Origin: Bacteroidia bacterium
GTDB taxonomy: Bacteria > Bacteroidota > Bacteroidia > J057
Assembly (NCBI GenBank): GCA_030430205.1
Contig: JAUIGE010000023.1
Coordinates: forward strand, 1-64,000
Reading direction: 5' to 3'
Length of the DNA: 64,000 bases
Made by a program: the position numbers and the translations under genes. Positions 6,201-6,566 of the stretch are shown piece by piece; positions within the stretch are counted from its first letter, which is position 1; each line of letters begins with the position of its first letter. The notes beneath the pieces are model-generated. The model was not told the DNA's origin, did not search any database, and saw nothing but the letters and a program-made list of their open reading frames with translations.

Positions 6201-6566
6201 CGCGGGGTGGAGCAGTCTGGTAGCTCGTCGGGCTCAGTTAATACTGTAGGTCACAAAGCCGAAAATAGCTTCTACTGAGCTGTTTTTATGAGGGCAGTGA
6301 TCGCATGGGCTGCATAGGGAGAAATCCTTATGTGAATTCTGTCAAATTCGGGGAAGCCGTTAGTAGGGTAATCCCGAGCCAAGCCACGGAGCAATTCGTG
6401 GAAGGTGTAGAGACTTGATGGCAGACACCTGAATTCCGATTTATCGGAAAAGGTGAAGAGAAAGTCCAGACCACAAATGATTCCGGATTTATTCCGGGAT
6501 GAGCAGCGAAAGCTGTAGTTGGTAAGCATAACCCGAAGGTCGCAGGTTCAAATCCTGTCCCCGCAA
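6201..6566 (+). tRNA. Initiator tRNA-fMet(CAU), split by a group I intron
   Basis: The exons are 6201-6234 and 6527-6566 (74 nt joined; CCA is not encoded). The acceptor arm is 6201-6207 CGCGGGG against 6559-6565 CCCCGCA, leaving the C1/A72 mismatch that marks bacterial initiator tRNAs; A73 is 6566. The D arm is GAGC/GCTC. The anticodon stem TCGGG/CCCGA contains the three consecutive G-C pairs typical of initiators. The anticodon CAT is 6527-6529, and the T arm contains GGTTCAAATCC. The gene is interrupted exactly after U33. Without splicing this tRNA could not fold, so intron excision would be needed for it to function. An integrase gene starts 84 bases beyond its 3' end, which suggests the locus is an integration site. 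Confidence 0.93.
6235..6526 (+). ncRNA. Group I intron (IC3-like) in the tRNA-fMet anticodon loop
   Basis: This is a 292-nt ORF-less self-splicing intron. The 5' exon ends in U33 and the intron ends in G (6526), as group I chemistry requires. P1 forms between exon GGCU plus CAGU (6231-6238) and ACUG, GGUC (6243-6246, 6249-6252), placing a U-G wobble at the splice site. P4 is 6347-6352/6373-6378 and P6 is 6384-6388/6397-6401. The Q-side segment AATCCCGAGCCAAGCC, the R-side GGTGTAGAGACTTGATGG and the S-side AGAGAAAGTCCAGA are near-matches to the core of cyanobacterial tRNA-Leu introns. P7 is GACUU/AAGUC (6412-6416/6462-6466). P8 is CACCU/AGGUG with an inner TTCCGA hairpin. A GAAA-tetraloop hairpin (6504-6515) matches P9. 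Short open frames on the opposite strand here are chance. The intron call is firm; the subgroup is inferred from remembered sequences. Confidence 0.93.

Follow-up and report, generated by a model that had tools for sequence, protein, structure and literature searches.

Group I introns in tRNA-fMet are known from cyanobacteria (Synechocystis, Gloeobacter). The 655-nt tRNA-fMet intron of Synechocystis is listed as the home of the endonuclease I-Ssp6803I (PMC1995217). Cyanobacterial tRNA-Leu(UAA) genes also carry small, ORF-less group I introns in the anticodon loop. Published group I introns of tmRNA include some at subsites known solely from Saprospiraceae and from Bacteroidia (PMC11915505). 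At the level of annotation, tRNAscan-SE 2.0 ascribed the absence of an fMet or Ile2 gene from 36 genomes to group I introns (PMC8450103).

Here we describe a split tRNA-fMet gene in a window of 64,000 nucleotides, the whole stretch of Bacteroidia DNA that was analyzed. Its intron has the same host gene and core as those of Synechocystis sp. PCC 6803 (I-Ssp6803I) and Gloeobacter. The U33/C34 insertion site also occurs in cyanobacterial records of our genome scan, which are relatives of the Synechocystis/Gloeobacter type, and the endonuclease family of the Synechocystis intron is found in relatives from Bacteroidota. The intron differs from that of Synechocystis in its Bacteroidota host, its length (292 versus 655 nt), its lack of an endonuclease gene and its nearest kin, which are not cyanobacterial. 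The tRNA-Leu(UAA) introns are likewise small and located in an anticodon loop, but they interrupt another tRNA, use another guide and fall outside the fMet introns. The tmRNA introns likewise lie in a structural RNA of translation and also occur in Saprospiraceae, but their site is the tmRNA T-loop and they form a separate lineage in trees. The window intron is a member of the known Synechocystis/Gloeobacter type, which is more widely distributed than usually stated.

Identification of the split gene

The first-pass annotation, made from the letters alone, had proposed a Bacteroidota tRNA-fMet split after U33 by a 292-nt group I intron, to be checked with Rfam and with an intron-aware tRNA search. 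Both searches agree with it, and the boundaries hold to the base. When introns are allowed, ARAGORN places a tRNA-Met(cat) gene, interrupted by an intron of 292 nt, at window positions 6201-6566 (plus strand, as for all features below unless stated); with introns off, it reports no tRNA anywhere in the window. The Rfam model RF00028 (Intron_gpI) matches 6275-6487 with 61.1 bits (E 4.8e-13), above the gathering score of 50 bits, and the match spans model positions 1-253, the full model length. The 5′ exon (6201-6234, nucleotides 1-33) ends at U33. It is followed by the intron (6235-6526), which ends in a terminal G (G6526) and is delimited by ARAGORN and the boundaries of relatives, and by the 3′ exon (6527-6566, nucleotides 34-73), in which CCA is not encoded. 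Read from the sequence, the joined exons carry the marks of a bacterial initiator tRNA: the anticodon CAU, a mismatch at 1-72 (C1-A72), A11-U24, and three G-C pairs in the anticodon stem (G29-31 with C39-41). The locus is real and most likely functional.

Intron structure and predicted splicing

Every element of the group I core that had been proposed is present: P1 with a U-G pair at the splice site, P4, P6, P7, P8, a GAAA-capped P9 and the terminal G. P2, P3, P5 and P9.0 are found in addition. The internal guide GGGCU (6307-6311) pairs with GGCU of the 5′ exon, with U33 opposite G6308, and its GGGC is invariant in 52 fMet introns. P1, as read from the sequence, forms between UGGGCU of the guide and a strand made up of exon GGCU plus CA, the bases that open the intron. 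A P10 can also be read, in which CAU of the 3′ exon pairs with AUG just upstream in the guide; it is not conserved in all relatives. The pseudoknot is formed by P3 (6338-6343 with 6420-6425), in which all cells of the alignment pair and five of six pairs show two-sided changes, and the guanosine-binding helix P7 (6412-6416 with 6462-6466), in which again 100% of cells pair. Drawn pairs and covariation likewise define P2, a hairpin with a GAAA loop (6313-6332), P4 (6347-6352 with 6373-6378), P5 (6356-6358 with 6367-6369), P6 (6379-6380 with 6404-6405), P6a (6384-6388 with 6397-6401), P8 (6426-6430 with 6451-6455) and its extension (6434-6439 with 6444-6449), P9.0 (6470-6473 with 6520-6523), P9a (6483-6487 with 6493-6497) and P9b, which has a GAAA loop (6504-6507 with 6512-6515).

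All pairs drawn for P2 to P9 are standard in the window. In an alignment that samples many phyla with 52 fMet introns, the drawn helices are paired in 94.5% of cells, and control helices slid by one to three columns pair in just 33-47%. Two-sided changes occur in 43 of 59 pairs and involve 461 cells; shuffles give 145 on average. Covariation thus supports the P3-P7 pseudoknotted core with P4-P6 and P8 that characterizes group I introns. The folding energy is also low relative to dinucleotide shuffles (z = -5.48). Splicing in the cell would be expected to proceed as follows. The pre-tRNA would fold with exon GGCU on the internal guide, placing the U33-G wobble in P1. Guanosine bound in P7 would attack after U33, and the freed U33 would in turn attack after the terminal G, joining the exons into a normal tRNA-fMet.

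Probable loss of the homing endonuclease gene

Many introns of the fMet lineage are near 650 nt long, with a P1 loop that holds an ORF for some 150 aa, and many other members have no endonuclease ORF. In one Saprospiraceae intron (L068), the ORF matches Pfam PDDEXK_5 and PDB 2OST (E 1.7e-57); the latter entry is named putative endonuclease, and we take it to be the structure of I-Ssp6803I. Longer members of the lineage carry a homing endonuclease gene of the I-Ssp6803I type (PD-(D/E)XK). In the window, the corresponding P1 loop and extension (6235-6306) hold no such gene, and the ORF list contains no I-Ssp6803I-like endonuclease anywhere in 6235-6526. The window copy has probably lost the gene and would now be kept by inheritance. 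Phage matches to the endonuclease are distant only, and BLAST of the intron against plasmids gives partial matches only. Separately, a 952-nt fMet intron of Desulfatirhabdium (L126) contains a 225-aa ORF that does not resemble the I-Ssp6803I type and may represent another family of endonucleases at the fMet site.

Initiator tRNA and tmRNA in the host genome

The host genome (7.24 Mb, 80 contigs, completeness 100%) contains 39 intact tRNA matches, and those with anticodon CAU, when read directly, have no initiator features. Used as a DNA query, the spliced fMet sequence matches only the two halves at the split locus. By both approaches, no second fMet gene was found in the 80-contig draft. The split copy is the single initiator tRNA gene found, the condition under which the first-pass annotation had translation initiation depend on the ribozyme. 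Among 13 genomes of the window's family, three have only a split gene, eight only an intact gene and two neither pattern; split and intact fMet genes never occur together in one genome.

A second group I intron of the host genome lies inside the tmRNA gene, on the minus strand (C2:62663-62896, 83.6 bits). The tmRNA itself is matched with 76.1 bits (L001 1501-2063), and by reading, the intron junction appears to fall after the second T of the T-loop. Another genome, that of Bacteroidia bacterium Co_bin.344, has group I introns in four of its structural RNA genes: tmRNA, a CAU tRNA, tRNA-fMet and tRNA-Leu(UAA) (L175, L182, L187, L191).

Distribution of fMet introns

GTDB species genomes were scanned with a pattern for split fMet genes that requires G instead of U33 before the 3′ exon. 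At least 115 stretches matched; when the listed matches were examined for the motifs of a group I core, 106 passed and nine failed. Four of the failures (L066, L101, L110, L145) were rejected on reading as not being introns of the fMet type, and the remaining five are masked, cut or divergent. The scan therefore yields at least about 106-111 introns with the same insertion site and guide, in roughly 19 phyla, cyanobacteria included. By record titles, the 106 among the matches listed include 35 from Cyanobacteriota, 19 from Bacteroidota, 11 from Omnitrophota, nine from Chloroflexota and seven from Rhodothermota, with a dozen or so further groups; because many records are metagenome bins, individual phylum assignments may include misbinned contigs.

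The first-pass annotation knew of no description in Bacteroidota. This still holds for the literature, in that a search mostly of papers open without subscription, in their main texts, found none, but the intron is not isolated: the split gene occurs in at least about 26 Bacteroidota/Rhodothermota records. In an even draw from the window's phylum, nine of 395 genomes have the intron, eight of them in one family.

Relatives of the intron and its genomic site

In a quick tree, cyanobacterial tRNA-Leu introns and tmRNA introns fall outside the fMet introns, behind a branch with support 96*. A more careful tree groups the window intron with those of a member of the same genus (G001), a member of the same family (G005) and Desulfococcaceae HSG9 (99/88), and joins this group to two delta-proteobacterial rows (100/95). 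The best match of the window intron is the fMet intron of the same genus (82% over 168 columns). The other groupings that were put to AU tests, on about 173 columns, are all retained, with p about 0.3. The careful tree thus provides support rather than proof for its grouping, and it does not fix the donor or the direction of transfer.

The split gene is flanked by a divergent era GTPase gene (5213-6100, minus strand; Pfam KH_2 and GTPase domains) and, on its 3′ side, by a terminator-like hairpin with a T run (6569-6599), a consensus match only. In tblastn on relatives, era adjoins fMet in family members whether or not the intron is present, so the locus is native. The exons of G005 equal the intact gene of another family member (G008) over 72 nt, which looks like a clean insertion of the intron. 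By contrast, the window and G001 have exons that resemble split genes from outside Bacteroidota more than the intact family genes. In 43 genomes of the phylum, with 55 copies in all, no other D-loop has the length of the window's form, AGTCTGG. On these few nucleotides, the window exons look foreign.

Several further features were observed. An intron-less family member (G003) has seven tandem intact fMet genes adjoining era (L195, L211-L216). A tyrosine recombinase gene (6608-7789) directly follows the split tRNA gene in the window, with a second integrase fragment at 7806-8321; the window was searched for a repeat of the tRNA 3′ end that could serve the neighbouring integrase as an attachment site, and none was found. 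Candidates for phage-borne fMet introns in 23 IMG/VR contigs that match the split-fMet pattern (L217-L239) were rejected: they have the tRNA 3′ half, but no matching 5′ half or group I core. Since they carry this half from the anticodon on without an intron, they are more likely attachment sites of fMet-integrating elements. Elsewhere, the window holds an Acido-Lenti-1 RNA (30479-30522, minus strand; Rfam 39.1 bits, cut-off 37) and a gene for a 1401-aa protein (10229-14434, minus strand) with response regulator and LuxR-type domains and an effector-associated domain, EAD11.

Interpretation and alternatives

Taken as one explanation, it is very probable that a group I intron of the fMet lineage, one that has lost its endonuclease gene and was most likely acquired laterally, splices from the window tRNA-fMet. 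A dead tRNA gene, with an intron that no longer splices and initiation served by another gene, would be conceivable in a draft of 80 contigs that has elongator-type CAU tRNAs. We regard it as very improbable: no second fMet gene emerged from the DNA search or among the CAU tRNAs, the exon pairing is intact, and so is every drawn core helix in the window. Direct descent from a cyanobacterial tRNA-Leu(UAA) intron is just as hard to credit. The two are alike in their core motifs, a likeness that the first-pass annotation had noted, and in being small group I introns of tRNA genes, and joining the window with the Leu introns is not rejected (AU p 0.31). The cyanobacterial Leu introns are nevertheless placed behind the 96* branch, the best match is to the same-genus fMet intron, and insertion site, guide and 3′ region are shared with other fMet introns. 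The kinship then suggested does not stand; within the limits of the AU tests (p about 0.3, about 173 columns), the nearest kin are fMet introns of the window's own family and of delta-proteobacteria.

The route by which the intron arrived is a separate matter from its identity. A purely vertical history in the family, in which the intron was lost several times and not transferred into the genus, would fit the presence of the intron in G001 and G005 at the same era-fMet locus, and tests for one clade of Saprospiraceae-like introns are not rejected (p 0.30). We consider this route unlikely, albeit a serious contender: the small group takes in Desulfococcaceae HSG9 (99/88), the window and G001 have a tRNA body nearer to that of other phyla while G005 has one equal to an intact family gene, and the window's D-loop form is unique among those 55 copies. 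The foreign-looking tRNA body makes lateral transfer into the genus, with exon co-conversion at the native era locus, the likely route. The intron would have reached the genus laterally, and the same event would have exchanged the tRNA body at this locus. In the simplest reading, the exons on either side would have been co-converted during homing, or the tRNA gene would have been exchanged in full, and the endonuclease gene would have been lost afterwards.

Implications

One scan extends the range of the fMet group I intron, for which cyanobacteria are the best-known hosts, to Bacteroidota and to at least roughly 19 phyla. As ARAGORN with introns off overlooks the split gene, such introns explain some of the initiator tRNA genes that are "missing" from annotations. 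In the host, whose genome is estimated to be fully complete, the sole initiator tRNA found and tmRNA both need intron removal. It is a speculative and rather improbable extension that homing swapped the genus's essential initiator tRNA for a foreign one at the era locus, and that, with translation start and ribosome rescue (tmRNA) both ribozyme-dependent, splicing could gate translation at low GTP or Mg2+. As split and intact sites occur within one family, homing into an essential gene can be studied there, together with the co-conversion of its exons.
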